Shown: piece by piece, positions 3,584-20,896 of the stretch
Layout: each line of letters opens with the position of its first letter
How positions within the stretch are numbered: position 1 is the stretch's first letter
Source: Ignavibacteria bacterium
GTDB taxonomy: Bacteria; Bacteroidota; Ignavibacteria; Tepidaquicellales; OLB5
NCBI GenBank assembly: GCA_025451455.1
Contig: JANWKI010000099.1
Coordinates: 1 to 34,876 of the forward strand
Direction of reading: 5' to 3'
Length of the DNA stretch: 34,876 bases
The notes under the pieces: model-generated
What the model saw: only the letters and a program-made list of their open reading frames with translations
Told to the model about the DNA's origin: nothing
The model's database searches: none
Position numbers and translations under genes: made by a program

Positions 3584-3676
3584 TTTTAGTTTTCTCCTTC
3601 TCTTTCCCCTAGAAAGAAATTGGTTAATTTGTAATTATTATTTATTATTTTATTTTTCAAAATTTCTGTTTCTGAA

Positions 3677-4936: not shown

Positions 4937-4943
4937 AGTTTTT

Positions 4944-5771
4944 TTACTGTTCTGTTTGCAGGTTATTATTTTTTACAACTATAATATCGTTGTATCTCAT
5001 ATCGATGTATTTAAAAGAATTTGCCGGTCTGTACACTCGCACCTGTTTCAGAAATCCATTCAATTGGATTAATTTACTGTTAATTGCATTCCTCAGTGAA
5101 AGATTATTGATATCTTTTAATGCATTTGGTAATTCATACTTATCTTTTCCGGGTAAGGAAGAATAATCTATTAAGTATACAGGCGTCGCATCATCACTTG
5201 TAATAATTGTTATCTGGTTAGTATCAGAAAAGTTAATTTCGGAAATATAATTATACAGGCTCTTATTCAGCTTAATTGACTGGCTGATGATATATTGTGC
5301 AATCTTTAATTTTTTCAGGTCATCTTTCCCGTATGCACCGGTATTAAGTTCTGCTGAAAGTCCGCTGATAACCGGCAGATCAATATTCATTTGTTCTTTC
5401 TTAAGCGTATACAGGGTCAGCTGGTCATCCACCAGGAATACTTCGCTGCCGCCTGTAGCTGCTGCAAAAGGATTCTTCTCAGAAATTTCTATTTTAATAA
5501 CTGCACCATCTTTAGAAACAACAACCTTCCTGATATTCGGATGTTTCGAGATCCTTGATTCGATCATATCGAGCGAAAGAACATTTGAACAGATCATTGA
5601 ATCATTTAGTTTGGCAAAATCGAATATTTCATCTTTTGATAATGTAATATTACCGTTCAGGCTTATGCTCTTAATAGTGGATTTATCTTTCCACAGGCCG
5701 GATAGTACAATGCTTGAAAAAGCGAAGATTATCACGATTATAAATAATATGATAAGCTTCCAGTTTTTCAT
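4944..5771 (-). CDS. ftsQ: cell division protein FtsQ (POTRA domain)
   Basis: A bitopic inner-membrane protein that links the cytoplasmic ring to the septal synthase complex. Of 275 residues, about 5-25 form a single transmembrane helix (LIILFIIVIIFAFSSIVL), followed by a POTRA domain at about 33-105 (IKSISLNGNITLSKDEI, then HPNIRKVVV) and a beta domain ending around 250. Sequence is divergent as usual for FtsQ/DivIB; assignment rests on the architecture and on the position just before ftsA. Its ATG overlaps the murB stop (ATGA), indicating translational coupling. No ddl gene lies next to it, unlike in Escherichia coli. Confidence 0.92.
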   Translation of the reverse strand: MKNWKLIILFIIVIIFAFSSIVLSGLWKDKSTIKSISLNGNITLSKDEIFDFAKLNDSMICSNVLSLDMIESRISKHPNIRKVVVSKDGAVIKIEISEKNPFAAATGGSEVFLVDDQLTLYTLKKEQMNIDLPVISGLSAELNTGAYGKDDLKKLKIAQYIISQSIKLNKSLYNYISEINFSDTNQITIITSDDATPVYLIDYSSLPGKDKYELPNALKDINNLSLRNAINSKLIQLNGFLKQVRVYRPANSFKYIDMRYNDIIVVKNNNLQTEQ

Positions 5772-6673
5772 ATTGCCACCTCCTCAAACCCGATGAGTTT
5801 TACTTCCATTTCAAGATCAATCCCTGTTCTTTCTCTTACGGTTTTCCTGATGATCTTAACAAGTTCTATCACATCATTTGCAGTTGCATTATCATAGTTC
5901 ACGATAAAATTTGCATGTTTGGCCGATACCATTGCGCCTCCATAGATAGTACCCTTTAATCCGCACTGATCTATCAGTATGGCAGCTTTATTATCTTTCG
6001 GGTTTTTGAAAACACAACCCGCATTTGGTATCTCAACAGGCTGCGATTCATTCCTTTTCTGTATAAGCTCTTTACGCCTCTTTAATAATTCTTCCCTGTT
6101 CCCTTCTGGCAGTATGAATTTAGCCTCTAAAACAACGGTACCTTTCAGATTCGAATTTCTATAGCCAAAATCACATTCTTCTTTCCCAAGCTTCTTAAGA
6201 GTTTCATTTTTTATTACAGTAACTTCGCATACATGGTCTGCTGCCTCGCCGCCGTAAGCCCCTGCATTCATAACCAGTGCACCGCCCACGGTTGCGGGAA
6301 TTCCTGCAAGCATTTCTACTCCTGCATATCCCTTTTGTATACAGTAATCCACAAATTTCGCTATTTTAACCCCGGCTCCGGCGGTAATAATTTCCTTTTC
6401 ATGCCTTAGATAGTTAAACGCCGATTCCAGATTTATGACTATTCCCTTAATACCTTCATCGCTGATAAGTATATTACTGCCATTGCCCATTACATAAAAA
6501 GGTATACCCTGTTTGTTTGCATACTTAATTATATTTACTGCATCATCCCCGTTTACGGGTTCAACAAAATAATCAGCAACACCGCCAATTCTGAAGGTGG
6601 TGTACTGAGCAAGAGGCTCATTCAGAGTAATCCTGCCCTTAAATACCCGTTGTATTTCTGATATTGATATCAA
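5768..6673 (-). CDS. murB: UDP-N-acetylenolpyruvoylglucosamine reductase MurB
   Basis: MurB reduces UDP-GlcNAc-enolpyruvate to UDP-MurNAc with NADPH through a bound FAD. The 301-residue length fits the short (type II) MurB. The FAD-binding half shows TTFRIGGVADYFVEP and VMGNGSNILISDEG (residues about 25-70). The catalytic elements are FGYRNSNLKG (arginine), the proton-donor serine in GGAMVSAKHANFIVN, and the C-terminal glutamate in LEMEVKLIG. The start is a TTG at 6673 that overlaps the murC TGA as TTGA, so the two genes are translationally coupled; the next in-frame Met would remove part of the FAD domain. Confidence 0.97.
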   Translation of the reverse strand: MISISEIQRVFKGRITLNEPLAQYTTFRIGGVADYFVEPVNGDDAVNIIKYANKQGIPFYVMGNGSNILISDEGIKGIVINLESAFNYLRHEKEIITAGAGVKIAKFVDYCIQKGYAGVEMLAGIPATVGGALVMNAGAYGGEAADHVCEVTVIKNETLKKLGKEECDFGYRNSNLKGTVVLEAKFILPEGNREELLKRRKELIQKRNESQPVEIPNAGCVFKNPKDNKAAILIDQCGLKGTIYGGAMVSAKHANFIVNYDNATANDVIELVKIIRKTVRERTGIDLEMEVKLIGFEEVAI

Positions 6674-8052
6674 TTATTTCCTGATTCAAGTATTTTTACA
6701 AATTCACTGCATAAATTTGTTATGTCTCCGGCACCCTGAAAAACTATAGTATCACTTTTCTTTGCCTCAGTCAGCAGTAATTCAATAATCCTGTTTTTGT
6801 CATGTACCAGTGATACATCTTTATTCAGCTTTTGAATCTCATTGAAAATCAGTCCGCTTGTAATACCATCAATCGGCAGCTCTCTTGCAGGATATATATC
6901 CATTAAGATCACCTTATCTGAAATTGAAAGTTCTTTTGCAAAATCTCTGTAGAAATCCCTTGTTCTTGAATACAAATGCGGCTGAAACACAGTGATAAGC
7001 CTGCCCTCTGAAATTTCTCTAAGTCCTTTTAAGCTGGCCCTTACTTCAACCGGATGGTGGGAATAATCATCATATACTTTTATTCCATTTTTGTTATACA
7101 TCAGCTGCAATCTTCTGTCAACAGTCTTAAAACCGGAGATACTTTCTCTGTATTTATCAAAAGCAATATCAAGCACTTTTGAAACTGCAAAACAAGCTGT
7201 TGAATTCAGAGCATTGTGCTTTCCTACCAAACCGATATTAATATCAATGTATGAACTGTGTGAATTGAGAATAGAGAAATTATGTTTATTTGCCGCAGCA
7301 CTATAATCAATTATTTTAAGGTAATTCTTATCATCAAAACCATAAGAAATCTTTTCCCTGTTTATTGAATTCATAAAACCCTTGATATTATCATCATCAC
7401 CGCAGTAAATGATATATGCACCGTATTTAGAGCGATCGCAAAATATCCTGAATGTCTCTTTAATGTCTTCAAGATCTTTGTATATATCCAGATGATCTTC
7501 ATCTATATTGGTTATAACTGTAACATCGGGCCTTAATGCAAGGAATGACCTGTCATATTCATCTGCTTCAACTACTGCAAAATTGCCGTTTCCAATACGT
7601 GATGCACCGCCATCAAACAACTGTACATTCCCTCCGACAAATATGAGCGGGTCCATACCTGCATCTACCAGTAACTTACCGATCATAGCAGTCGTAGTGG
7701 TTTTTCCATGTGTACCTGAAACTGCTATTAAATATTTATCATTTACTATTTCACCAAGCATTTCAGCACGGCGGATAATCCTTAACCCCAGTTCAGCTGC
7801 CCTTTTGTACTCAGGGTTATCCTGTTTCACAGCCGATGTATAGACAACGGTATCAATAGAAGTATTAATATTATTTTCGGAGTGGCCGATATTTATCTTT
7901 GCTCCCAGCCCGGCAAGCCTTTCAGTAATATGTGTTGCTGTCATATCAGAGCCTGAAACACTGCTGCCATTGAGTATGTAATACTCAGCAAGCCCGCTCA
8001 TTCCGATTCCGCCTATTCCTATGAAATATATGTTATTCTTTTTAGTCAGCAC
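6670..8052 (-). CDS. murC: UDP-N-acetylmuramate--L-alanine ligase MurC
   Basis: MurC adds the first amino acid, L-alanine, to UDP-MurNAc using ATP. The 460-residue protein begins with the UDP-binding Rossmann motif (IYFIGIGGIGMSGLAEY), has the Mur-ligase P-loop GTHGKTTTTAMIG at about 114-126, the central-domain signatures VVEADEYDRSFL and TNIDEDHLDIY, and the C-terminal motif YDDYSHHPVEVRASL, all typical of MurC. The start is GTG at 8052, five bases after the stop of the preceding small membrane-protein gene; the Rossmann motif begins nine residues later, so no later start is possible. murB follows with a 4-base overlap. Confidence 0.98.
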   Translation of the reverse strand: MLTKKNNIYFIGIGGIGMSGLAEYYILNGSSVSGSDMTATHITERLAGLGAKINIGHSENNINTSIDTVVYTSAVKQDNPEYKRAAELGLRIIRRAEMLGEIVNDKYLIAVSGTHGKTTTTAMIGKLLVDAGMDPLIFVGGNVQLFDGGASRIGNGNFAVVEADEYDRSFLALRPDVTVITNIDEDHLDIYKDLEDIKETFRIFCDRSKYGAYIIYCGDDDNIKGFMNSINREKISYGFDDKNYLKIIDYSAAANKHNFSILNSHSSYIDINIGLVGKHNALNSTACFAVSKVLDIAFDKYRESISGFKTVDRRLQLMYNKNGIKVYDDYSHHPVEVRASLKGLREISEGRLITVFQPHLYSRTRDFYRDFAKELSISDKVILMDIYPARELPIDGITSGLIFNEIQKLNKDVSLVHDKNRIIELLLTEAKKSDTIVFQGAGDITNLCSEFVKILESGNN

Positions 8053-8057
8053 TTTTA

Positions 8058-8525
8058 TTATTCAGGTTTATTAACCGTCTGCGGATGTTTAATTTTCAAA
8101 AATTCTCTGATAAGCTCAGTACCCCTTTCAAAATCATTTGCTCTTATCCTCAATTGTTTTCGTCTGTGTTTAAGCTTCAGCTTAATAATCCTGTATGTCA
8201 ATTCCTCGTCTGATTTTCTTCTTCTTCCGATCTTAATATTTAGAATATCTGTAAAAAACACTTCCCTGCTGCCAAACCTGTTTTTGAATACAATCCTGTC
8301 GTTTTTCAATATTATAGTAGGCGCCCTGATAATATTAACTACTACAATAAATAAAAATACCACGATGAAAAAGATCAGGATGTAAAAGATCGGGTCGTTA
8401 TATAATGACCTGAAACTCTCTCCAATTGTACCTTTTATCAGCACATAAGCAGCAAAAAACAAAAGGTAAATAACCAGTGACTGGTAATAGAAATCCATTC
8501 TATGTTTATGAATTTTCTCTTCCAT
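8058..8525 (-). CDS. two-helix membrane protein with PH-like C-terminal domain, unknown function
   Basis: A 155-residue protein that is not a standard dcw gene. Two hydrophobic helices are visible (about residues 15-31 and 45-66), leaving a cytoplasmic-type C-terminal part (about 69-150) with alternating short beta strands (PTIILKNDRIVF, REVFFTDILNIKIG, RIIKLKLKHRRKQLRIRA) and a final helix (FERGTELIREFLKI). This pattern resembles the small bacterial PH-like domains that follow paired membrane helices, but that is inference from pattern only. It sits 2 bp after murG and 5 bp before murC, so it is surely co-transcribed and probably translationally coupled with lipid II synthesis genes. No catalytic residues are evident; a scaffold or membrane role is possible. 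Confidence 0.85.
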   Translation of the reverse strand: MEEKIHKHRMDFYYQSLVIYLLFFAAYVLIKGTIGESFRSLYNDPIFYILIFFIVVFLFIVVVNIIRAPTIILKNDRIVFKNRFGSREVFFTDILNIKIGRRRKSDEELTYRIIKLKLKHRRKQLRIRANDFERGTELIREFLKIKHPQTVNKPE

Positions 8526-8527
8526 TT

Positions 8528-9646
8528 TTATACTGTTTTATTACCCCTTTTTACAGGTTCTTTTATTAATTCACTCAGCATATTCGCAATTTTTGAAGCT
8601 GCTTTTTTATTTGAAAACTGAGCTATATTTTTCTTAAAACTGTTTAACTTTTCTTTATTGCTTAAGAGCCCGGTTACAATTGGTTCCAGTTTAATATCCA
8701 GCTCCCTGTCCGGTATTATCTCAGCCGCATTTTTTTCTGCAAGTGCATCAGCATTCTTTTGCTGATGGTTTTCGGCAGCTCCCGGGAAAGGGACAAAAAC
8801 TGCCGCTGAGCCAAAGCTTGCAAGCTCCATAATTGTTGAGATCCCAGACCTGCATAAAACCAGATCAGAAGCAGAATATGCATAGTCAATATTATCAATG
8901 TATTTTAACACTTTAACATTTTTATTGCTGTTAACAATTTTACAAATACTCTCAAAATCTTTGTCACCCGTCTGCCAAATGATCTGTATACCGGATGATG
9001 TAATATTTTTGAAACATTTTTTCAGTGAATTATTAATGGAGTTAGCTCCCTGGCTACCTCCAAATACAAATAAAATATTTTTATTCGGGTCCAGGCCGAA
9101 GTAAATAGCGGATTCACTTTTTCCATACCTTTTAAGATTCTCTCTGACCGGGTAAGACATAATTTCTATATTGTCCTGTCTTTTCAGATATTTTTTCGTC
9201 CCTTCAAAATTCAATATTACCCTGGTAGCATATTTTGAAACCAATTTCACGGTAACCCCGGGATAATAATTCCCTTCTTCAATTACGGTAGGAATTCCCA
9301 TTTTAGCTGCTGTCCTGAGCACAGGCCCCGAAACATAACCGCCTGTACCGTAAACTATTTCAGGTTTAAATTCATTCAATATTTCTTTAGATCTCCGGAT
9401 TGATTTCAGGACTTTGTATGCCGCAGATACGTTTTTTATACTCAGGCTTCTTTTGAATCCGCTGATATCAATTGTTTCAAGTTTATATCCGTTTTGAGGC
9501 ACTATTTTTTCCTCAATTCTGCCTTTTGCCCCTATAAATCTGATATCTATATTTTGATTCATTTTTCTTAATTCATCTGCTATTGCTATTGCGGGATAAA
9601 TGTGCCCGCCTGTTCCGCCTGCTGCAAACAAGATCTTATTGATCAT
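8528..9646 (-). CDS. murG: UDP-GlcNAc:lipid I GlcNAc transferase MurG
   Basis: MurG is a peripheral inner-membrane GT-B glycosyltransferase that adds GlcNAc to lipid I, giving lipid II. Landmarks are the glycine-rich loop AAGGTGGHIYPAIAIAD near the N-terminus, the acceptor-side motif GTGGYVSGPVLRTA, IIEEGNYYPGVTVK-type loop (here TVIEEGNYYPG), the second glycine-rich motif FVFGGSQGANSIN, and the donor-binding stretch LVLCRSGISTIMELASFG with FVPFPGAAENHQQKNA. The usual motif reads HEQN where this protein has EEGN, a modest deviation. I place the start at the ATG at 9646 (372 residues), which has AAGGA upstream and overlaps the ftsW stop by 11 bases; a longer frame from 9682 would only add residues coded inside ftsW. 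Confidence 0.96.
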   Translation of the reverse strand: MINKILFAAGGTGGHIYPAIAIADELRKMNQNIDIRFIGAKGRIEEKIVPQNGYKLETIDISGFKRSLSIKNVSAAYKVLKSIRRSKEILNEFKPEIVYGTGGYVSGPVLRTAAKMGIPTVIEEGNYYPGVTVKLVSKYATRVILNFEGTKKYLKRQDNIEIMSYPVRENLKRYGKSESAIYFGLDPNKNILFVFGGSQGANSINNSLKKCFKNITSSGIQIIWQTGDKDFESICKIVNSNKNVKVLKYIDNIDYAYSASDLVLCRSGISTIMELASFGSAAVFVPFPGAAENHQQKNADALAEKNAAEIIPDRELDIKLEPIVTGLLSNKEKLNSFKKNIAQFSNKKAASKIANMLSELIKEPVKRGNKTV

Positions 9647-10793
9647 TGCTTCCTTCAGCTTCTGCCAGTTCAAGTGATTCACGTAACAATGCGCCCTTTG
9701 GCTGCAGTCTGTAAGTTGATATGTTCAGCAGCAATCCAACGGCAATCGAGTTAAAAATTATTGATGTTCCGCCGTAACTGATAAAAGGCAGTGTCTGTCC
9801 CGTCGTTGGTATCATTCCAGTTGCTACCATCATATTGATAACTGCATTCAGCCCGATAATTATCGTTATCCCGAATGCGAGGTATTTTCCAAAATCGTCC
9901 TGCAAATTCTTTGCTAGCTTTAATCCGCTGTAAATAAAAATCCCGAAAAGAAGAATAACTATGGTAACTCCCCAGAAACCATATTCTTCACCAACGATCG
10001 AGAATACAAAATCATCATATGACTGCGGCAGGAAGAATTCGCGCTGGTTAGAGTTTCCCGGCCCAACACCAAGAAGTCCGCCGTTTCCGAAACCGATAAT
10101 TGCCTGTGATAACTGGTAACTTGCATCTCCGCCTGATGTATGCTCTTTGTAAGAAAATATTCTGTTGAGAATATAAGGTTTTGAGAGAACAAACAGAATT
10201 GCAGCCGGCAGCATTGAAAGAACAGTAATTGCCATATGCTTTATTTTAACTTTACCAACCCAGAACAGCATCAGACTTGAAATGAATATTACGCTTGCCG
10301 TGGAGAAATTAGGCTGAACTGCAATTAATGCAACAACTATCAAAACATAGCCCAATAGAGGCAGGTATCCATAATACAAATTGCCGATATAATCCTTTTT
10401 CTTGGCTAAAAGAAAAGCTATGTTTATCAGTAGAGCGTACTTAACAAAATCTGCCGGCTGAAAACTGAAACCTCCAAGATATATCCACCGGGATGCCCCT
10501 TTTGTAGTTTCTACTCCGGCAAACAAAAGATATAAAAGCATAAGAACAGCAGCGCCCATCAGCAATTTTCTGTATCTGATCAGGTGAAGGTAGCTAAACC
10601 GTGATACAACAAAAATCAGGAATATTCCGGCCGATGCCCTTATGAGGTGATTACGGAATAAGTAAGAACTATCACCTGCCAGCTTGACTGACCAGCTGGA
10701 AGAGGCACTGTAAACCACCCCCAGGCTGAATGTTATCAACGCAAGAATTGGAATCAGTATTCCAAGATCGATCTTATTTATTCGCGCTTCCAT
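9636..10793 (-). CDS. ftsW: septal peptidoglycan glycosyltransferase FtsW (SEDS family)
   Basis: A 385-residue polytopic protein of the SEDS family with about ten membrane helices. It polymerises lipid II at the septum together with its cognate class B penicillin-binding protein. Seen motifs are the family signature IYLGGFSFQPADFVKYAL, AVQPNFSTAS, the large loop with SYQLSQAIIGFGNGGLLGVGPG and the catalytic-region FFLPQSYDDFVFSIVGEEYG, and the C-terminal GMIPTTGQTLPFISYGGTS. SEDS members FtsW and RodA are hard to split by sequence alone; the dcw position between murD and murG supports FtsW. The gene begins 3 bp after the murD stop. Confidence 0.95.
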   Translation of the reverse strand: MEARINKIDLGILIPILALITFSLGVVYSASSSWSVKLAGDSSYLFRNHLIRASAGIFLIFVVSRFSYLHLIRYRKLLMGAAVLMLLYLLFAGVETTKGASRWIYLGGFSFQPADFVKYALLINIAFLLAKKKDYIGNLYYGYLPLLGYVLIVVALIAVQPNFSTASVIFISSLMLFWVGKVKIKHMAITVLSMLPAAILFVLSKPYILNRIFSYKEHTSGGDASYQLSQAIIGFGNGGLLGVGPGNSNQREFFLPQSYDDFVFSIVGEEYGFWGVTIVILLFGIFIYSGLKLAKNLQDDFGKYLAFGITIIIGLNAVINMMVATGMIPTTGQTLPFISYGGTSIIFNSIAVGLLLNISTYRLQPKGALLRESLELAEAEGSNDQ

Positions 10794-10796
10794 CTA

Positions 10797-12167
10797 TTAT
10801 AGTGAATTCACAATTTTCTTAAATTCTTTTCCTCTATGTTCGTAATTATCGAACATATCAAAACTGGCGCATGCCGGTGAAAGCAGTACAACTTCTCCTG
10901 CAGATGCATTAGAAACAGCTTTATCCACTGCATCTTCAAGGCTTTCTGCAATTTTCACCGGAAGAATTTCTTTGAAAAAGTCATATACTTTATTCTTCGA
11001 TTCACCGATTGCAACAATATATTTCACATTCTCTTTTACTTCTTTTTCGATCTGGCTGTAATCATTGCCCTTATCTCTTCCGCCTAAGATCAATACAAGC
11101 GGTTCACTAAAACCCCTGAGGGCATACCATACTGAATTTACATTTGTAGCTTTGGAATCGTTGTAAAACTTTACACCCTTTAATTCTCTTATAAATTCAA
11201 GCCTGTGCTCAACTCCCCTGAAGTTTTCGACAGTTTTTTTGATATATTCTTTTTCGATTCCGAATATTCTGGCTGAAATAACCGAAGCCATTGTATTATA
11301 TACATTATGCTGACCTTTAATTATGAGCTTTTGAGTATCTATGATGTTTTCTTCTCCCATATAGTAAAAATAAATGAGGTCAAAATTATCCACATACGCA
11401 CCGGAATCGAATTTTTCTTTAATTTCCGGGCTCATACTAAATGCCGAGCGCTTTGCTTTAATATTATTGCTGCTTGATTTCTTGACCAGCTCATCATCAT
11501 AATTGAATACAAAATAATCGCCATCATTTTGATTTTCTGTTATTCTCATTTTTGAATCAGCATATTTTTCATATGAATCGTATCTATCCAAATGGTCCGG
11601 AGTAATATTCAGAAGAATTGAGATGTACGGTTTGAAATTCATGATATTATCAAGCTGAAAGCTGCTTGTTTCCAAAACAACAATTGACTTTTCATCTGTT
11701 TCTTGCGCTATTTCTGAAAATGGTCTTCCGATGTTGCCGCAAACATATGTTTTAAACCCTGCATCTTTAAATATCTCTCCTATGAGTGTAGTTGTGGTTG
11801 TCTTCCCGTTAGTGCCGGTAATTGCGATTATTTTTCCTTTGCAAAACCAGGAAGCAGCTTCTACTTCACTTACTATATCTATGCCTTTTTCTTTAGCGAT
11901 CCTGATAACTTCAGATTTTTGAGGTACACCCGGGCTTACAATCAGCAGGTCGGTATCAAATACTCTGCTGCTGTGACCTCCAAATTCGTGTTCAATACTG
12001 CTTTCAACAATTTCATTCACAAATATTGAGCTTATTTTATCCTGAGCTGCAGATTCACTCAAGAAAACTTCAAATCCATTTTTTTTAAAAAGTTTTGCCG
12101 CTGCAACTCCGCTTTTTGCAGTACCAATAACAGATACTTTTTTATATTTCCTGAGTATTTTATTCAA
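10797..12167 (-). CDS. murD: UDP-MurNAc-L-alanine--D-glutamate ligase MurD
   Basis: MurD adds D-glutamate to UDP-MurNAc-L-Ala in the cytoplasm. The 456-residue frame has the N-terminal dinucleotide-type fold (VSVIGTAKSGVAAAKLF), LLIVSPGVPQKSEVI, the P-loop ITGTNGKTTTTTLIGEIF at about 118-135, the central motif SILLNITPDHLDRYDSYEKY, and the C-terminal NDSKATNVNSVWYAL and LILGGRDKGNDYSQ, all characteristic of MurD. The start is TTG at 12167; the conserved N-terminal strand begins ten residues later, so it is required. It follows the inserted outer-membrane-protein gene by 7 bp and precedes ftsW by 3 bp. Confidence 0.98.
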   Translation of the reverse strand: MNKILRKYKKVSVIGTAKSGVAAAKLFKKNGFEVFLSESAAQDKISSIFVNEIVESSIEHEFGGHSSRVFDTDLLIVSPGVPQKSEVIRIAKEKGIDIVSEVEAASWFCKGKIIAITGTNGKTTTTTLIGEIFKDAGFKTYVCGNIGRPFSEIAQETDEKSIVVLETSSFQLDNIMNFKPYISILLNITPDHLDRYDSYEKYADSKMRITENQNDGDYFVFNYDDELVKKSSSNNIKAKRSAFSMSPEIKEKFDSGAYVDNFDLIYFYYMGEENIIDTQKLIIKGQHNVYNTMASVISARIFGIEKEYIKKTVENFRGVEHRLEFIRELKGVKFYNDSKATNVNSVWYALRGFSEPLVLILGGRDKGNDYSQIEKEVKENVKYIVAIGESKNKVYDFFKEILPVKIAESLEDAVDKAVSNASAGEVVLLSPACASFDMFDNYEHRGKEFKKIVNSL

Positions 12168-12174
12168 CCTGATA

Positions 12175-12828
12175 TTATTTTGGAAATGTAACTCCTACAT
12201 TTAACCCGATTCCCTGGTATCTTAAATCGTCAAACTCCCTCAAATAATTAAAATATTTTAATTCAACAATTACGTTAAAATCATAATTTCTGAAAAATAC
12301 TGCTCCGGCTATGAGATTAAGCCCCAGCCCGCCCCTTGCTGCAACGTGGGTTCCAGTCGAGTCCTCCCTGTCCATTCCAATGAAATGCAGGCCTAATCCG
12401 CCTCCAATAAATGGGTCAAGTTCTGATTTATTCTTCGATCCTAAAAACGGGTACATTACATTTATGTCCAATCCTATATCTGTGAAGGCAGGGCTTGTCT
12501 TGAACCTGAATGGTAAACTTATCTCAGCCCAGAAGCCATCGCCGACATATTTACCAAATACTTCGAGTGAGATCATTTGGTTACCTGTATAATCACCCTG
12601 CAGAAAGAACATACCAATCTTGCCTCCCGGAACAAAGTAAATCTTCTTTGAAGGTTTCTGGAACAGATTTGTTTTTGTTTCTCCTGATTTCAGCTTATAA
12701 GCACTTAAATTTAAACCTTCATTATTGCCGGATTTCAATTTAAGTTCTTTATTAAGCATCTGTGAAAATGAAACCGATGATATGAATATCATAATAAATA
12801 TTACTGCGAATATCTTGGTTAATTTCAT
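12175..12828 (-). CDS. predicted outer-membrane beta-barrel protein inserted in the dcw cluster
   Basis: A 217-residue secreted protein of unknown function. Residues 1-22 form a clear signal peptide (MKLTKIFAVIFIMIFISSVSFS, then Q). After a polar spacer of about 45 residues, the rest is a run of amphipathic beta strands separated by short turns (KIGMFFLQGDYTG, FWAEISLPFRF, GLDINVMYPF, PFIGGGLGLHFIG, RGGLGLNLIAGAVFF, NVIVELKYF, GIGLNVGVTFPK), ending in an aromatic/charged strand as in small outer-membrane barrels. It lies 30 bp after mraY with its own AAAGGA ribosome-binding site and 7 bp before murD, so it must be co-transcribed with cell-wall precursor genes. Such an envelope gene is not part of the usual dcw set. 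No domain name can be assigned with confidence. Confidence 0.85.
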   Translation of the reverse strand: MKLTKIFAVIFIMIFISSVSFSQMLNKELKLKSGNNEGLNLSAYKLKSGETKTNLFQKPSKKIYFVPGGKIGMFFLQGDYTGNQMISLEVFGKYVGDGFWAEISLPFRFKTSPAFTDIGLDINVMYPFLGSKNKSELDPFIGGGLGLHFIGMDREDSTGTHVAARGGLGLNLIAGAVFFRNYDFNVIVELKYFNYLREFDDLRYQGIGLNVGVTFPK

Positions 12829-12858
12829 ATTACTTATCCTTTAAATTTGTTTATTTAC

Positions 12859-13968
12859 TTACCTTACCTTGAATGTTGCAAATGTTAATATTGCCAGGAT
12901 TACTGCAACAATATAAAACCGGGTTACAATTTTAGGCTCCGGGATTCCCGCTAATTCGAAATGATGATGAAGCGGTGCCATTTTGAAAACCCTTTTCCCC
13001 TCTCCTGTTTTCTTTTTTGTATATTTAAAATAGTACCTTTGAATGATCACTGATAAAGATTCTGCAAAAAATATACCTCCAAGAATCGGCAGCAGAAACT
13101 CTTTTTTGACTAATATTGAAAGTGTACCTATGGCACCTCCTAAGGCAAGGGAACCCGTATCCCCCATAATTACCTGGGCAGGATATGAGTTGAACCAAAG
13201 GAATCCAAGCGAAGCGCCTACTAAAGCTGCGCAGTAAACTGCCAGCTCACCGTTACCGGGCAAATATATAATATTCAAATATCTGCTGAATATTTCGTTA
13301 CCTGATAAGTACGCTATTAGTCCGATTGCAAGTCCGGCAATACCTACAGTTCCAATTGCAAGTCCGTCAAGACCATCGGTAAGGTTAACTGCATTAGAGG
13401 TCGCCGTAATGATAAAGACCATAATGGGTATATACAGATACGAAAAATCAAACTCGATCTGCTTAAGGAACGGAATCGTTGTCACGGAATTAATTCTGTC
13501 AAATTCAGGTAAAAAATAGATCAGGCATGCTACTACAATGCCAAGCCCTATTTGATTCATCAGCTTATATCTTGCTACAAGCCCTTTTTTCATTTTCTTG
13601 AACACCTTTAAATAATCGTCAATGAATCCCACCAGGCCCATCCATATGGTTGCAAGAAGTATCAGCAAAATGTATGTATTTTTCAGATCGCCCCATAACA
13701 GTACCGGCACAATAATAGATAGTATAATTATCACACCGCCCATTGTTGGCGTTCCTGATTTTACTAAGTGTGATTTCGGGCCGTCTGCCCTGATCTCGTC
13801 TGCAACTCTTTTTTCATTCAGCACTTTCAAAATTTTCGGACCTATCCAGAAACAAATGATCATTGCAGTTATAGCAGATAGCGCTGAGCGCCAGGTCAGG
13901 AATTTGAACACATCAAATCCGGGAGGATTGTATGTCTTGTTTATGTATTCTGCTAAATAGTATAACAT
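12859..13968 (-). CDS. mraY: phospho-MurNAc-pentapeptide transferase MraY
   Basis: MraY moves phospho-MurNAc-pentapeptide from UDP to undecaprenyl phosphate, making lipid I at the inner membrane. The 369-residue protein has about ten membrane helices. Conserved loops are KSHLVKSGTPTMGGVIIILS, GFIDDYLKVFKK (aspartate pair), NAVNLTDGLDGLAIG, PAQVIMGDTGSLALGG, and the cytoplasmic MAPLHHHFELAGIPEPKIV (triple histidine), all classical for MraY. It starts at an ATG 27 bp after murF and is followed by the inserted outer-membrane-protein gene. Confidence 0.98.
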   Translation of the reverse strand: MLYYLAEYINKTYNPPGFDVFKFLTWRSALSAITAMIICFWIGPKILKVLNEKRVADEIRADGPKSHLVKSGTPTMGGVIIILSIIVPVLLWGDLKNTYILLILLATIWMGLVGFIDDYLKVFKKMKKGLVARYKLMNQIGLGIVVACLIYFLPEFDRINSVTTIPFLKQIEFDFSYLYIPIMVFIITATSNAVNLTDGLDGLAIGTVGIAGLAIGLIAYLSGNEIFSRYLNIIYLPGNGELAVYCAALVGASLGFLWFNSYPAQVIMGDTGSLALGGAIGTLSILVKKEFLLPILGGIFFAESLSVIIQRYYFKYTKKKTGEGKRVFKMAPLHHHFELAGIPEPKIVTRFYIVAVILAILTFATFKVR

Positions 13969-13995
13969 TAGTGATTAATAATGATATTATTTAAC

Positions 13996-15387
13996 TCATT
14001 TCGAGAGATTTTCAATGACCTCTTCCATTTTCATTGATCGTGAACCCTTAACCAAAGCTGCATCGCCTTTTTTCAGGTTCAACTTCAGAAATTCCGACAA
14101 AGTTGATTTATCCTGAAAATGATAGTTATTTTTTACTCCTTTAGCCGCCAGAAATGTTTGGTATGAATCTTTGCCATATGTATAGAGATTCTCAAACTTC
14201 AATTTCCGTACCAGCTTTCCTATCTCTCTGTGTTCCTTTATACTTGATTTTCCAAGTTCCAGCATATCAGCTAATACCACGAACTTACTGCCATTTATTC
14301 TGAACGCTCTCAAATTTTCAAGCGCAGGCTTAACTGAACCGGGATTTGAATTATAGGTATCATCTATTATCCAAGCTCCGGAAATATTCCTCAGCTGGTT
14401 GCGTTTATTTGAATTAAGCCTGTATTCATTCAATGCCTTTTTAACATCACCAGACTGAACTTCGAAATAAAGCCCTACTGCGGCCGCTCCGAGCGCAGCC
14501 AGGTAACTTTGATAACCTATAGTATTTAACTGTGTACTGATCTTTTTCTTTAAATATTTTACTTCAATTTCAGGATAAAAGCTTTTGTATCTCTTTACTT
14601 TGCCTTTAACATCAACTTTTCCCGCTGATCCAAATGAAAAAACCTTGATGTTCTTCTTTTTTGCCATTTTTCTTAAATGCATATCGTCTGCATTTAGAAA
14701 CATTGTTCCGTATTTACTCTGCAGGTAGTTAACCAGCTCTCCTTCGGCTTTTGCAACTCCCCTTAAGTCTCTTAAAAATTCCAAATGTTCTTTACCGATA
14801 TTTGTCAGAAGCCCGAATTGAGGTTCGGCAATTCTGCACAGCCTATCTATCTCACCAAAGTGATTAGTCCCTACTTCAATTACAGCTATTTCATGGTCAC
14901 TTTTCAGCCTGAAAAGAGTGAGCGGTAAACCAAGCTCATTATTCAGGTTTCCTTCGGTCTTCAATACATTGAACTTTTTTGATAACACATAAGCAACAAT
15001 ATCCTTGGTAGTTGTCTTTCCATTGCTGCCTCCAATGGCAATAACCGGTATGACAAACTTCCTTCTGAATATATTTGCCAGTTCACCCAGCGCCTTCACC
15101 GTATTGCCTACAGTAACCAGAGATTTATTATTAAAAGAACGTTTTTGGGAACTGCTTAAATTATCAAACCATTTTTTTTCAACTACAGCGCACCTGGCTT
15201 TTTTTAGAACATCGCACACAAAATCATGTCCGTTAAATCTTTCACCTCTTATAGCAAAAAAAAGATCCCTTGAAGCACATTTCCTTGAATCAATTGAAAC
15301 ATTGCTGAACCTGTGATTCCTGATGTTATTTTCATTTACAATCTTTGCCCCGCCAATCTGCAAAAGATCCTTTATACTTAGATCCAT
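13996..15387 (-). CDS. murF: UDP-MurNAc-tripeptide--D-Ala-D-Ala ligase MurF
   Basis: MurF attaches the D-Ala-D-Ala dipeptide to complete the UDP-MurNAc-pentapeptide. The 463-residue frame shows the N-terminal domain (VSIDSRKCASRDLFFAIRGE, NGHDFV), the P-loop IGGSNGKTTTKDIVAYVL, EVGTNHFGEIDRLC, LTNIGKEHLEFL, and the C-terminal IDDTYNSNPGSVKPALENL followed by LADMLELGKSSIKEHREIG, a reliable MurF set. Its ATG shares the A of the murE stop (TGATG), indicating coupled translation. A frame of this type close to the start of mraY is the canonical order. Confidence 0.97.
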   Translation of the reverse strand: MDLSIKDLLQIGGAKIVNENNIRNHRFSNVSIDSRKCASRDLFFAIRGERFNGHDFVCDVLKKARCAVVEKKWFDNLSSSQKRSFNNKSLVTVGNTVKALGELANIFRRKFVIPVIAIGGSNGKTTTKDIVAYVLSKKFNVLKTEGNLNNELGLPLTLFRLKSDHEIAVIEVGTNHFGEIDRLCRIAEPQFGLLTNIGKEHLEFLRDLRGVAKAEGELVNYLQSKYGTMFLNADDMHLRKMAKKKNIKVFSFGSAGKVDVKGKVKRYKSFYPEIEVKYLKKKISTQLNTIGYQSYLAALGAAAVGLYFEVQSGDVKKALNEYRLNSNKRNQLRNISGAWIIDDTYNSNPGSVKPALENLRAFRINGSKFVVLADMLELGKSSIKEHREIGKLVRKLKFENLYTYGKDSYQTFLAAKGVKNNYHFQDKSTLSEFLKLNLKKGDAALVKGSRSMKMEEVIENLSK

Positions 15388-16874
15388 CAGCTGTATTTTA
15401 AAGCTGTTTCCTTATCGCTTAAATGATACTTAATGCCTTTTATTTCCTGGTAAGTCTCATGTCCTTTTCCGGCAATTAAAATTACATCGCCTTTATTGCT
15501 CATTTCAACAGCCTTTTGAATTGCAAGCTCACGATTTTCTTCAACTGAATAATTATCACTTATTATTCCTTCTTTGATCTCCTCAATAATTGTCATCGGG
15601 TCTTCATTTCTTGGATTATCTGAAGTAATGATCACTTCATTACTTAACTCTGCTGCAATTCTGCCCATTATTGGGCGTTTGGTTCTATCCCTGTTTCCTC
15701 CGCAGCCGAATACAGTAATTATTCTTCCTTTTGATTTATTACTTCCAAGAATTTCCCGAATTGTAGTTATTGCCTTTAATAATGAATCGGGAGTATGTGA
15801 ATAATCAATTATTGCAACAGCGCCATTTTTAAGGATTACCTGGTTAAACCTGCCATCCACCGGATCGAACTCTGCAATGGAATCAAGAATTTCGGAATAT
15901 TTCAATCCCAGCGATTTAAGAGAAGCCACAGCAGCAAGTATATTGTGAATATTGAATTTTCCCGTCAATTTTGTCCTGATCTTAATTTTATCCAGGTTTT
16001 CACCATTTCTGGGGACAAGTACATTAAAACTCATCCCGCTGAAATCCATTTCGAAATTCTTTACAGAAAACGCTCCGCACCCGAATCCATAAGAAATCCT
16101 TTCTGCTTCAGAAGTACTTATCATTCTTGCGCCAAGTTCATCATTGCAATTGTATATCACTGCGGGTGTTATCCCTTTTTGTCCGGTTCTTTTCATTGAA
16201 TCGAATAATTTCTTTTTTGCTTCAACGTATGAATCTATACTGCCGTGAAAATCGAGATGTTCCGGGGTTAAGTTGGTAAATACAGCAATATCAAAATCGA
16301 GCCCGAACACCCTGTTCAATACAAGTGAGTGAGATGAAACTTCCATAACTGCAAATTCCACTTCTTCATCGCTCATCTCCATAAGCAGCCTGTTGAGATC
16401 AATTGATTCCGGAGTAGTATGATCGGTCTTCAAAAATCTTTTATTAATATAGTTACCGTTTGTACCTATTAAACCTGTTTTTTTACCTGCAGAGAGTAAA
16501 ACAAAATTTATCAGGCTGGTTACAGTTGTTTTTCCGTTTGTACCCGTTACTCCTATCAGCTTCATTTTTTTTGAAGGTGAACCGTAAAAAGCATTGCTTA
16601 AAATTGCCATGAGCTTCCGGCAATCTTTCACTTTGAAAATGCGTGAATCCGAAATCCCGGGTTCACCATCGGTAAAAACAGCCATTGCTCCCCGGTCAAG
16701 AACGTCCTTCACGAAATTATTCCCATCTGTATTATACCCTTTTATAGCAAAGAAAATGCTGTTTGGCTCAACATCATTTGAGTTATAGCATAGTTTGCTG
16801 ACTGTAAAGTCAAACTGTTTTCCTATATCTACTATTTCTTCTTCAGCAATTGCTGTCATTTCTAAAAATTTCAT
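15387..16874 (-). CDS. murE: UDP-MurNAc-L-Ala-D-Glu--diaminopimelate ligase MurE
   Basis: MurE adds the third stem-peptide residue. Of 495 residues, the N-terminal domain shows YNSNDVEPNSIFFAIKG (about 30-46), the P-loop GTNGKTT lies at 111-117, the carbamylated-lysine region and EVSSHSL at about 178-184, TNLTPEHLDFHG at 200-211, and the substrate-selecting motif DNPR at 419-422. In this family DNPR marks meso-diaminopimelate as substrate rather than lysine, so the organism should have DAP-type peptidoglycan. murE begins 3 bp after ftsI and its TGA overlaps the murF ATG. Confidence 0.97.
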   Translation of the reverse strand: MKFLEMTAIAEEEIVDIGKQFDFTVSKLCYNSNDVEPNSIFFAIKGYNTDGNNFVKDVLDRGAMAVFTDGEPGISDSRIFKVKDCRKLMAILSNAFYGSPSKKMKLIGVTGTNGKTTVTSLINFVLLSAGKKTGLIGTNGNYINKRFLKTDHTTPESIDLNRLLMEMSDEEVEFAVMEVSSHSLVLNRVFGLDFDIAVFTNLTPEHLDFHGSIDSYVEAKKKLFDSMKRTGQKGITPAVIYNCNDELGARMISTSEAERISYGFGCGAFSVKNFEMDFSGMSFNVLVPRNGENLDKIKIRTKLTGKFNIHNILAAVASLKSLGLKYSEILDSIAEFDPVDGRFNQVILKNGAVAIIDYSHTPDSLLKAITTIREILGSNKSKGRIITVFGCGGNRDRTKRPIMGRIAAELSNEVIITSDNPRNEDPMTIIEEIKEGIISDNYSVEENRELAIQKAVEMSNKGDVILIAGKGHETYQEIKGIKYHLSDKETALKYS

Positions 16875-16877
16875 TAT

Positions 16878-18992
16878 TTACTGATCCGGATTTTCACAAC
16901 TGATGGCTATAACCTGATTTTTATTAATTACAGATCCTGCCTCCGGATTCTGACATGTAACTTTTCCGAACCCGTTAATTTTATATTCTACTCCGAATGA
17001 AGAAATTAATTTAATGCATTTCCTCATGCTCAATCCTTTTAAGTCAGGCATTTTCATTCTTGAATCCCTTATCAGTTTGTTCTCATTCTGGCCGGCGGCT
17101 GTTATCAGTTTTATCTTTTTCTCACCTTTTTCGTCCGTAAAAAAGTTTTGCTCTGTTACTATTGCATTCTTTTTCAGGCCTTCAATTTCATATCCAAGCT
17201 GGTTTTCCTTAAGGAATTTCACTGCATCGGCAACATCAAAATTTACAAGGTTCACTTTATCGGAAGAATTGTTTTCAGTCTGTAAATTGCCCGCAAGTAC
17301 AATGTTTGCATTATTATCCGGGGATGAAAATTCGTGCAATCCCGTAAGGTTAATAATTCTTTCTGCTATTTTCCTGAATATCGGCGCCGACACTTTACCA
17401 CCGTAATATTCACCGGCTCCCGGAGCATCTATAATGACCGCTACAACAATTTGCGGATTTTCAGCCGGGAAGTAACCTATGAATGATGAGGTATACTTGC
17501 TTTTTGAATACTTACCCTCAACCATCTTTTGGGAAGTTCCGGTCTTTCCGGCTATCCTGATGTTTTCGATCCTGGCATCTTTTCCGGTGCCTCTTTCGAC
17601 AACTCCAACAAATAATTCTGTCAAAGTTTTAGCAGTATTTTTAGAAATTACATTCCTTATCTCAGTTGGTTTAAATTCCTTTAATAATGTACCGTCCGGT
17701 GCGAGTATTTTCCTTATTAAAAAGGGTTTCATCATCATTCCTCCGTTAGCCACGCAGGAATAAGCATTTGTCATCTGCAGCGCCGTTACAAGTAATTCAT
17801 AACCAATTGCCATATAATTAAGTGAAACCGGGGAGAACTCGACCGGTCTTTTCAGCCTGCCCTTCATTTCTCCGGGCAGGTCAATTCCGGTGGTTATTCC
17901 GTATCCAAAATCCCTGGCATATTTATAGAATCTTTCCCTTCCAAGCTTATTGGCGATCTGTATAGTTCCGATATTGCTGGATTGCTCTATGACCTGCTGG
18001 AAAGTCAGGCTGGTAAATTTATGGGAATCTTTAATGTTCATATATTCACCGCCATAAGTGTTGATAACATCAAACTTGTTCAACAGGTTTTCTTCCAGTG
18101 CAGCTGCTGCTGTAACTATTTTGAAAGTTGAACCGGGTTCATATAAATCCGTGATCTCAGCAATTTTATCCGGGCTTGAGCCGTCAACTGAAACTGAATT
18201 CATAGCCAGTATCTCGCCGGTTTTAACATTCATTACTATGACTTTTCCGCCGAGGGAATTATTAACATTTACCCCGGATTCCAGTTCTTCTTCAACAATC
18301 TTCTGGATGTTCATATCGATAGTAAGGATGACGTTATCCCCGTCAAGCGGTTCCTGGCGCGGATATTCGACTGCAGGACGCTTTCTGCCAAGCCCGTCTT
18401 TCTGCATTACAACATACCCGTCTTTTCCTGCAAGAAGGTCATTGAGCTCAAGCTCAACACCGCTTAAGCCGATATTATCGATATTTGTAAACCCGATCAG
18501 CTGAGAAGAAAGCTTATCATAATTAAATATTCTGTTTGGCTCATTGAGCTTTATTACACCTGAAAGATTCAGATCCCTCACCTGAGATTCATGCTTTGGG
18601 TCAATTCTTCTTTCAAGCCATACAAATGATGTATTCTTGGTATTTAGTTTATCCGTGTAGTAATTTTTATCTTTCCCGAAAATTTCTGCGAAAATTGCAG
18701 CTACTGAATCTTTATTATCAACCATGTTCGGATCTGCAGCAAAAGAGTACATATTGATATTTGATACCAGTGCATTCATCTTTCTGTCAAAAATAATCCC
18801 GCGCGAAGGCTTCAAAGATATTTTGCTCTCATACTGCTTCTTAGCCGCCAGCTGGTATCTGGATGCTTCTATGACCTGTATTTTGAAAAGTTTGAAAAGG
18901 ATTACAATGAACAATAGGCCGAATATCACCATGAAAAGAGTTATTCTTCTTTCGGTGCTTGACTTAATATTTGGACTTGTTCTCTCCCTCAT
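16878..18992 (-). CDS. ftsI: septal penicillin-binding protein (FtsI/PBP3 type) with C-terminal PASTA domain
   Basis: A class B penicillin-binding transpeptidase that cross-links septal peptidoglycan in partnership with FtsW. Of 704 residues, 17-37 form the membrane anchor, about 55-210 the dimerisation domain (PSRGIIFDRKMNALVSN), and about 245-550 the transpeptidase domain. Active-site motifs are S288-T-F-K291 (SxxK), S338-S-N340 (SxN) and K483-T-G485. A PASTA domain is visible at about 647-700 (MPDLKGLSMRKCIKLISSFG), and residues about 580-632 look like a degenerate additional PASTA-like unit. Proteobacterial FtsI lacks PASTA; its presence with about 700 residues is usual in the Bacteroidota/Chlorobi branch and in Gram-positives. 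The gene begins 39 bp after ftsL and is 3 bp from murE. Confidence 0.95.
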   Translation of the reverse strand: MRERTSPNIKSSTERRITLFMVIFGLLFIVILFKLFKIQVIEASRYQLAAKKQYESKISLKPSRGIIFDRKMNALVSNINMYSFAADPNMVDNKDSVAAIFAEIFGKDKNYYTDKLNTKNTSFVWLERRIDPKHESQVRDLNLSGVIKLNEPNRIFNYDKLSSQLIGFTNIDNIGLSGVELELNDLLAGKDGYVVMQKDGLGRKRPAVEYPRQEPLDGDNVILTIDMNIQKIVEEELESGVNVNNSLGGKVIVMNVKTGEILAMNSVSVDGSSPDKIAEITDLYEPGSTFKIVTAAAALEENLLNKFDVINTYGGEYMNIKDSHKFTSLTFQQVIEQSSNIGTIQIANKLGRERFYKYARDFGYGITTGIDLPGEMKGRLKRPVEFSPVSLNYMAIGYELLVTALQMTNAYSCVANGGMMMKPFLIRKILAPDGTLLKEFKPTEIRNVISKNTAKTLTELFVGVVERGTGKDARIENIRIAGKTGTSQKMVEGKYSKSKYTSSFIGYFPAENPQIVVAVIIDAPGAGEYYGGKVSAPIFRKIAERIINLTGLHEFSSPDNNANIVLAGNLQTENNSSDKVNLVNFDVADAVKFLKENQLGYEIEGLKKNAIVTEQNFFTDEKGEKKIKLITAAGQNENKLIRDSRMKMPDLKGLSMRKCIKLISSFGVEYKINGFGKVTCQNPEAGSVINKNQVIAISCENPDQ

Positions 18993-19031
18993 TTATTTAT
19001 GGGTTATGCCATATGACCCTATGCATGTATA

Positions 19032-19346
19032 TTATTCGGTCAAATTATCGAATTCTGATTTCTCAATTGTTATTTTCCTGGGCTGGGTAGTGGAATATTC
19101 CAAACCCAGCTTATCAACAGCAGTATTTTTGATGTTATCAAAATTAGAAAGCCGCTCTATTTCAGTCTGAAGATTATTATTGAAAGTAACGGATTTGTTT
19201 ACTTCGGTCTGGATATTGGAGTTGTCAACAACGAGTGAATTCACAGCAATGATATTGTTAACAAAGAAGATTATTATTCCCGAGGCTATGAAAAGCATAA
19301 CCATGAGGTTGAATAGTGAAATTTTTCTCTGTTTTGGGCTTCTCAT
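19032..19346 (-). CDS. ftsL: FtsL-like division protein
   Basis: A 104-residue bitopic protein: short basic N-terminus (MRSPKQRKISLF), one transmembrane helix at about residues 12-32, then a predicted coiled coil (SNIQTEVNKSVTFNNNLQTEI) and a small C-terminal segment with LGLEYSTTQPRKI, similar to the conserved end of FtsL/DivIC proteins (a leucine/glycine followed by an aromatic and a proline). Sequence conservation in FtsL is always low; the call rests on topology, size and the fixed place between rsmH and ftsI. It would form the FtsQ-L-B complex that activates FtsW-FtsI. No separate ftsB is seen in the window. Confidence 0.85.
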   Translation of the reverse strand: MRSPKQRKISLFNLMVMLFIASGIIIFFVNNIIAVNSLVVDNSNIQTEVNKSVTFNNNLQTEIERLSNFDNIKNTAVDKLGLEYSTTQPRKITIEKSEFDNLTE

Positions 19347-19412: not shown

Positions 19413-20297
19413 TTATATCTTTTCTGCCACCCTTAGCTTAGCACTTCTTGCCCTGATGTTCACTGTGATCTCTTCTTCACCTGGCTCAACGGGTTTTTTT
19501 GTTATTACTTTCAGCCGATCGTCGCTTCTGAACCCGTTCTTAACTATCCTGTCCTCGAGAGAATGATATGAAATTGCTGCTATTTTTGTGCCTATTTCAA
19601 GTGTGTCAACTGAATCTTCAATTACCCTTTTTAGATTTTCCAGTTCATTATTGACCTCTATCCTTATTGCCTGGAAAAGTTTCGAAAGATCGCTGTTCAG
19701 AAATCTTGCGGGAACCAGGTTCTTCAATAGCCCGACCAGGTCAAAAGTCGTTTCAAATTTCTTATTCTTTCTTGAATGAACAATTTCCTGAGCAATTTTC
19801 CTTCCATACCTAAGCTCACCGTACTCGTATAGTATCCGCATTATCTCCTTCTCATCATATCTGTTCAGGATATCTTTTGCCGTCAGTTTTTGATCTTTAT
19901 CAGCCCTCATATCCAGCGAAGTATCTTTTTGATAGCTGAATCCGGCTTCACTGCTTAACTGGTAAGATGAGAGCCCAAGATCCATCACAATTCCGCTTAT
20001 CTTATCAAACCCTGCGTCTTTGATAATCTGTTTTATATTGCCAAAATTGCCCTGTACAAAAATGATCCTTCCGGCAAACTTTTCAAGAACTTTTTTACAA
20101 TGCTTTATTGCAAAAACATCTCTATCTATTGCAATTACTTTTGCTTCAGGTGATTCTTCTAATATTTTTTTGGTGTAACCGCCGCCTCCAAGTGTGCAGT
20201 CAACATAAACCGTGTAACCCGTTTTGCTTCCGCTATCGAGCAGGTACTTTAATGTTTCGTTTATAAGTACCGGCTCATGATAGAATTCTTCATTCAA
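19413..20297 (-). CDS. rsmH: 16S rRNA (cytosine1402-N4)-methyltransferase RsmH (MraW)
   Basis: RsmH methylates N4 of C1402 in the ribosomal decoding centre with S-adenosylmethionine. The 294-residue frame opens with FYHEPVLINETLKYL, then the SAM motif VDCTLGGGGYTKKIL, VIAIDRDVFAIKHC, and GIVMDLGLSSYQL, and contains the insert domain (RYDEKEIMRILYEYGELRYG, LFQAIRIEVNNELENLK) and SYHSLEDRIVKNGF near the end, all diagnostic. The start is TTG at 20297; the ATG four bases further on is out of frame. It lies 8 bp after the mraZ stop, as in most dcw clusters. Confidence 0.98.
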   Translation of the reverse strand: MNEEFYHEPVLINETLKYLLDSGSKTGYTVYVDCTLGGGGYTKKILEESPEAKVIAIDRDVFAIKHCKKVLEKFAGRIIFVQGNFGNIKQIIKDAGFDKISGIVMDLGLSSYQLSSEAGFSYQKDTSLDMRADKDQKLTAKDILNRYDEKEIMRILYEYGELRYGRKIAQEIVHSRKNKKFETTFDLVGLLKNLVPARFLNSDLSKLFQAIRIEVNNELENLKRVIEDSVDTLEIGTKIAAISYHSLEDRIVKNGFRSDDRLKVITKKPVEPGEEEITVNIRARSAKLRVAEKI

Positions 20298-20305
20298 TGT
20301 ATTCC

Positions 20306-20767
20306 CTACTCACCGGAATTTTTTGAATATAGCTTTGTCATTACTTTCTGCATTACCCCTTCGTATGATTCAGAGCTCTCTTTAAGATATTTATCATAAG
20401 CTGCCGGGTTCCATACTTCAATTCTTTCGATCTGTCCGATAAGCAGAATTTCTTTTTTTATTCCAACTATCTTTAGCAATTCCTGGGGGACCAAAACTCT
20501 GTGCTGCGAGTCAATAGAAAGCTCATCAGCCTGAAAAAGCATTTGCCTTCTCATCAGGACCTCATCATTTGTATATGGATTTGTATTCTGTACGGTCTGC
20601 AGAACCTTGGTCCATTCATATGCCGGGAAAAGCCAAACGCAATTATCTCTTCCAAGTGTTACACTCAATATGCCATTGGCTTCCGGCAGTATATGCTTAC
20701 GGAACTTGGCAGGAATAATTATTCTGCCTTTTTCATCTATTGTAGTATTAGAGTGTCCCTGGAACAA
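20306..20767 (-). CDS. mraZ: transcriptional regulator MraZ
   Basis: MraZ is a DNA-binding protein with two AbrB-like swapped-hairpin domains; it forms a ring and binds direct repeats upstream of its own operon. Of 153 residues, the first domain holds TIDEKGRIIIPAKFRKHI (about 9-26) and the second SQHRVLVPQELLKIVGIKKE (about 82-101); both carry the family DxxxR core (DEKGR, DSQHR). The start is a TTG at 20767, and a TAA stop directly precedes it in frame, so no upstream start is possible. It is the first gene of the dcw operon; its own target repeats lie 71 bp upstream at 20838-20867. Confidence 0.97.
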   Translation of the reverse strand: MFQGHSNTTIDEKGRIIIPAKFRKHILPEANGILSVTLGRDNCVWLFPAYEWTKVLQTVQNTNPYTNDEVLMRRQMLFQADELSIDSQHRVLVPQELLKIVGIKKEILLIGQIERIEVWNPAAYDKYLKESSESYEGVMQKVMTKLYSKNSGE

Positions 20768-20837
20768 TTAATTTTTCTTCGTTATTTTTACTGGTTTTTT
20801 GTCGGTTTAAAAGAGTAAGAAAGGTGAAATAGGCTGA

Positions 20838-20867
20838 CCTCCACTTTCCTCCATTTTCCTCCACTAC
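20838..20867 (-). promoter_or_regulatory. MraZ-box array (three 10-bp direct repeats)
   Basis: On the minus strand three consecutive 10-base units read GTAGTGGAGG, AAAATGGAGG and AAAGTGGAGG (plus positions 20858-20867, 20848-20857, 20838-20847). The period of exactly one helical turn and the TGG core are those described for MraZ operators (TGGGN repeats with 5-base spacers in E. coli; AAAGTG repeats in Mycoplasma). The array starts at the last base of the -7 promoter element, so it covers the likely transcription start; bound MraZ should block initiation. Confidence 0.85.
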
Positions 20868-20896
20868 AAAAATACGAAAAAAAAACCATTTGTCAA
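20867..20896 (-). promoter_or_regulatory. promoter of the dcw operon
   Basis: On the minus strand TTGACA (20891-20896) is separated by 16 bases from TATTTTTG (20867-20874). The second box matches the Bacteroidota -7 consensus TAnnTTTG exactly, and the TTG-to-TA distance of 19 bases fits that sigma factor; TTGACA also matches the general sigma-70 -35 box. Transcription should start about six bases on, inside the MraZ repeats, giving a leader of roughly 95 nt before the mraZ TTG. Confidence 0.8.

Follow-up and report, generated by a model that had tools for sequence, protein, structure and literature searches.

Three tandem 10 bp repeats upstream of mraZ in an uncultured Ignavibacteria bacterium very probably constitute an MraZ operator of the dcw promoter, lying over the predicted transcription start and the bases just after it. 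This reading is drawn from sequence comparison, in which conservation of the repeats, their absence from genomes without mraZ, the array found in E. coli and the published MraZ sites all agree. The DNA analysed (the window, 34,876 nt in full) belongs, as one contig, to an Ignavibacteria MAG whose nearest named relatives, judged by MraZ, are Ignavibacteria/Chlorobiota MAGs with 72-83% identity. An earlier note on this DNA had proposed that an MraZ operator overlaps the start of transcription; measured against a predicted start, conservation and linkage to mraZ support that proposal.

A cognate MraZ is encoded in the same genome by the gene adjacent to the repeats, mraZ (20306..20767, minus strand, 153 aa). 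Its identity is secure, with 114 bits to TIGR00242 against a cut-off of 98 and two matches to PF02381, and the product has two domains and is a relative of MraZ proteins whose structures are known. For the MraZ structures 9qlg, 9qlr and 9sx6, a literature search found no accompanying paper. The TTG start (20767-20765, minus strand) aligns with the ATG of relatives, and an in-frame TAA stands immediately 5' of it. mraZ is the first gene of the dcw cluster, which continues on the minus strand to ftsZ. Next comes rsmH (mraW; 19413..20297, minus strand; TTG start at 20297-20295; TIGR00006), encoding the 16S rRNA C1402 N4-methyltransferase, and then the remaining cluster (2333..19346, minus strand) in the order ftsL-like, ftsI/pbp, murE, murF, mraY, an OMP barrel gene, murD, ftsW, murG, a small membrane protein gene, murC, murB, ftsQ, ftsA and ftsZ, where the ftsL-like and ftsQ assignments are weak matches. 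The barrel gene, outer-membrane beta-barrel-like by PF13505, lies inside the cluster between mraY and murD (12175-12828, minus strand), and the small membrane protein, a 155 aa membrane-type protein without a confident family, is encoded between murG and murC (8058-8525, minus strand).

The minus strand 5' of mraZ reads TTGACA-N16-TATTTTTG-TA-GTGGAGGAAAATGGAGGAAAGTGGAGG. The predicted dcw promoter has TTGACA as its -33/-35 element (20891..20896, minus strand) and, after a 16 bp spacer, TATTTTTG as a Bacteroidota-type -7 element of the form TAnnTTTG (20867..20874, minus strand). Putative MraZ box 1, GTAGTGGAGG (20858..20867, minus strand; GTGG core at 20864-20861), begins on the last G of TATTTTTG, position 20867, and overlaps the predicted transcription start. 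Putative box 2, AAAATGGAGG (20848..20857, minus strand), has an ATGG core at 20854-20851, and putative box 3, AAAGTGGAGG, occupies 20838..20847 of the same strand. The boxes keep an exact 10 bp register, and their 10-mers resemble each other without being the same: box 2 has the core ATGG in place of GTGG. The positions, the 10 bp register and the beginning on the final G of TAnnTTTG that the earlier note had described were all recovered on the minus strand. Between the end of box 3 (20838) and the mraZ TTG at 20767 lie 70 bp, the rest of the untranslated leader (20768..20837, minus strand), which is weakly conserved. Across the genus the core of box 2 is ATGG, once TTGG (20854-20851 in the window; L046-L056), and ATGG also occurs in L060 of the second family of the order, which might mean that a weaker core is tolerated or even preferred in box 2. 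An AATGG in the promoter spacer (20890-20886) was considered as a fourth box and rejected: its RTGG starts 25 bp away from box 1, a distance of two and a half turns, and the family outgroups do not keep it.

A chance origin of the triplet is ruled out by shuffling and by its uniqueness in the assembly. Its self-similarity exceeds that in all 2000 dinucleotide shuffles of the 300 bp upstream region. The pattern RTGGN6RTGGN6RTGG has a single match in the 2.3 Mb assembly, at the mraZ promoter, although a second site might be missing since the assembly is about 64% complete; the reversed pattern, used as control, gives zero matches in this assembly. Genome-wide counts were likewise obtained by pattern searches in the genus, where a stricter pattern (up to two mismatches) has exactly one match in 12 of 13 genomes, one of these estimated complete. 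That single site always precedes mraZ where checked; in the thirteenth genome the contig ends inside mraZ. Additional MraZ sites do not recur in the genus: where relatives have surplus RTGG triplets, the cores are mostly ATGG, and the reversed control likewise produces some. For the promoter, TTGAC-N17-TAnnTTTG has one mismatch-free match in the window, at mraZ, while about 1.3 chance matches would be expected there with one mismatch allowed.

Conservation was followed through the mraZ upstream regions of 77 genomes of the phylum, the window included, and of E. coli K-12, giving 78 regions. Three phased boxes are present in all 40 regions from the order, 14/14 in the window's own family and 26/26 in a second family. 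Among the 120 boxes of the order, TGG is found in every one, a preceding G in 106 and an A before that G in 108. TTGACn-N16-TAnnTTTG stands at exactly the same spacing in 38 of the 40, and in the window's family both CTTGAC and the -7 element are invariant among the 14 members. The two exceptions to TAnnTTTG, L015 and L026, are by eye CAnnTTTG variants. Conservation in relatives was the check set out in the earlier note, and it is borne out both by the phased boxes beside TAnnTTTG in the 14 and 26 regions of the order and by boxes throughout the phylum. Over all 78 regions, which are not independent events because the sequences are related, the full RTGG triplet occurs in 53 (0.01 expected from shuffles) and a box pair in 71 (0.77 expected). 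Lags between TGG pairs in these regions peak at 10 and 20 bp, and the opposite strand of the 78 regions displays no comparable peak. Several of the seven pairless regions still have GTG recurring at roughly 10 bp in a weaker core, e.g. AAAGTGGTAAAAAGTGTTATTTTGTG in family f23.

Placement relative to the promoter varies within the order. TTTG and the first GTGG are 2 bp apart in the window's family and in L058, L059 and L062, and mostly 7-8 bp apart elsewhere, so that the operator shifts by about half a helical turn relative to TAnnTTTG while its internal 10 bp register stays constant. Family f23 (L073, L075, L079, L084) carries boxes of the Mollicutes type, AAAGTGG TAA AAAGTGT TAT TTTGTG, and these seem to overlap a -7-like element instead of following it.

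The boxes follow the presence of mraZ. A box pair is found in 71 of the 78 mraZ regions but is absent from the 500 bp before rsmH in all nine genomes without an mraZ match (eight from family f14, one from f22), which represent about two independent losses. All eight f14 genomes sampled, of the same class (G058, G111, G138, G153, G157, G165, G187, G195), retain rsmH with mraZ undetected and the boxes absent, apparently a lineage-wide joint loss of mraZ and boxes. This dependence bears on whether a regulator other than MraZ binds the repeats at the dcw promoter. Other binders of tandem repeats exist, such as HsdC in Mollicutes, for which the spacer differs by 1 nt (PMC5282649); yet motif, 10 bp spacing and position are identical to the MraZ sites of distant bacteria, and the boxes are tied to mraZ and present as a single copy per genus genome, which leaves another regulator with a negligible share of the probability.

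Tandem direct repeats with a TG(G) core and a 10 bp period at the dcw promoter, at or just past a predicted start and kept there through the order, are also what is described for MraZ elsewhere. E. coli K-12 (NC_000913) has GTGGGAAATTGTGGGGCAAAGTGGG immediately 3' of its promoter, with three GTGG boxes at exact 10 bp spacing, and the array GTGGGaaattGTGGGgcaaaGTGGG occupies the same place as the Ignavibacteria triplet. It differs in its GTGGG cores and its E. coli-type -10, whereas the Ignavibacteria sites have GTGGAGG cores after TAnnTTTG and an ATGG middle box. The Mollicutes site is given as (AAAGTGKN3)3 (Fisunov 2016, as quoted in PMC5282649). It too has three 10 bp units, and box 3 of the window, AAAGTGGAGG, fits AAAGTGK exactly, but box 2 is AAAATGG, box 1 is GTAGTGG, and GGAGG follows TG in the units. 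In PmraBc of B. cenocepacia four 7 nt repeats with 3 nt spacers lie over a mapped start, and MraZ gel-shifted the fragment (PMC7761207); Burkholderia shares repeats of 10 bp period overlapping the dcw start, with four repeats and a mapped start against three repeats and a predicted start in Ignavibacteria. Repeat spacing therefore equals that of known MraZ boxes, 10 bp in E. coli, Mollicutes and B. cenocepacia, as the earlier note had held. Its further view that the core blends the E. coli and Mycoplasma versions was overstated: all three have GTG(G) every 10 bp, and because these sites agree, GTGG is a common core and no blend specific to the phylum.

A G-rich stretch also lies just past the mraZ promoter of S. 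aureus, where it folds into a quadruplex in vitro (PMC11796246). That paper takes the stretch to be a quadruplex, whereas box phasing is the conserved feature here. A G-quadruplex controlling transcription, as claimed there, could be considered for the present repeats as well, since six GG tracts fall within 30 nt of the window array, but that array has no GGG tract, and the conserved feature, GTGG every 10 bp, is one that a quadruplex would not need. Further, 4 of the 40 order regions (L012, L029, L059, L062) have only three GG tracts yet three perfectly phased boxes; because these relatives fall short of four tracts, a quadruplex is unsupported as a conserved entity and seems extremely unlikely to be what the repeats are kept for. 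Conversely, the S. aureus stretch may be the same element as the MraZ boxes, a suggestion made by likeness of description and not of sequence.

The repeats might instead work in RNA, through a leader hairpin or through GGAGG as ribosome-binding signals for a short ORF beginning at the ATG of box 2. GGAGG and ATG are indeed present in the repeats of the genus, and a downstream CACTTTC is able to pair with box 3 in part of it. The consensus energy of such a hairpin is weak, however, with 0 of 10 consensus pairs changed on both sides; leader folds differ between relatives and none is common; and no Rfam family scores above threshold, a sub-threshold match being the only hit. The short ORF ranges from 9 to at least 38 codons, lies in different frames in different species and is missing from the family outgroups, and GGAGG is unconserved in the order, where GTGGGG, GTGGTG and GTGGTT occur. 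With no compensatory changes, no kept frame and no kept GGAGG, the RNA readings fail and are very improbable. TCCCAAA recurs just after box 3 in L015, L016, L017, L021, L028, L058, L059 and L062; pairing with GGGA of box 1 or 2 is possible, but a common fold was not found.

As an MraZ operator, the array could work by a simple mechanism. The ring-shaped MraZ would read one GTGG box per helical turn along a single face of the DNA. Since the array sits on and beyond the predicted start, bound MraZ may hinder the housekeeping RNA polymerase in forming an open complex or in leaving the promoter, and would therefore hold down its own production together with that of the genes transcribed from the dcw promoter. 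We infer that a slide of half a turn with constant 10 bp register is easier to reconcile with steric blocking than with a fixed polymerase contact. The tight autorepression of the dcw genes predicted in the earlier note is plausible, with binding by MraZ, the sign of regulation, the exact start and the reach over the cluster all presumed from this arrangement. For E. coli, the dcw cluster is reported to be autoregulated (Eraso 2014, as cited in PMC8475190). Against the operator reading stand the core of box 2, ATGG where GTGG is usual, a start site that is a prediction, and conflicting reports on the direction in which MraZ acts: mraW and ftsZ rose when mraZ was lost in M. genitalium, while MraZ overproduction was accompanied by more FtsZ in M. 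gallisepticum (PMC8475190).

Non-AUG starts are a further trait of this locus. mraZ starts with TTG or GTG in 14 of 14 family members (11 TTG and one GTG among 12 of the genus), and in each of the 11 genus members inspected, the window among them, rsmH starts with TTG; the loci besides the window are L033-L042, L046-L056, L022 and L032. The TTG starts of both genes are mildly unusual, because about 10-13% of long ORFs, in a sample from one complete genus genome, seem forced to TTG; they are a single lineage trait and not many independent events. RsmH methylates C1402 of 16S rRNA, and this methylation influences non-AUG initiation. Since mraZ and rsmH both have such starts, the cluster might be under double feedback, with MraZ acting on transcription via the boxes and RsmH forming a second loop at translation. 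The second loop is conceivable because an E. coli mraW mutant is stated in PMC8475190 to have altered non-AUG initiation, but the two-loop arrangement is considered very unlikely.

The type of site is already known from E. coli, Burkholderia and Mycoplasma; what is new, and well supported, is its occurrence in Ignavibacteria and its promoter context there. The MraZ operator in that context would thereby extend to Ignavibacteria and throughout the phylum, and the G-quadruplex stretch at the S. aureus mraZ promoter may be worth considering as an MraZ operator too. The rule is compact: three GTGG cores, one every 10 bp, placed at the start site, with a single such site in each genome of the genus. 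It would predict dcw control in uncultured lineages.
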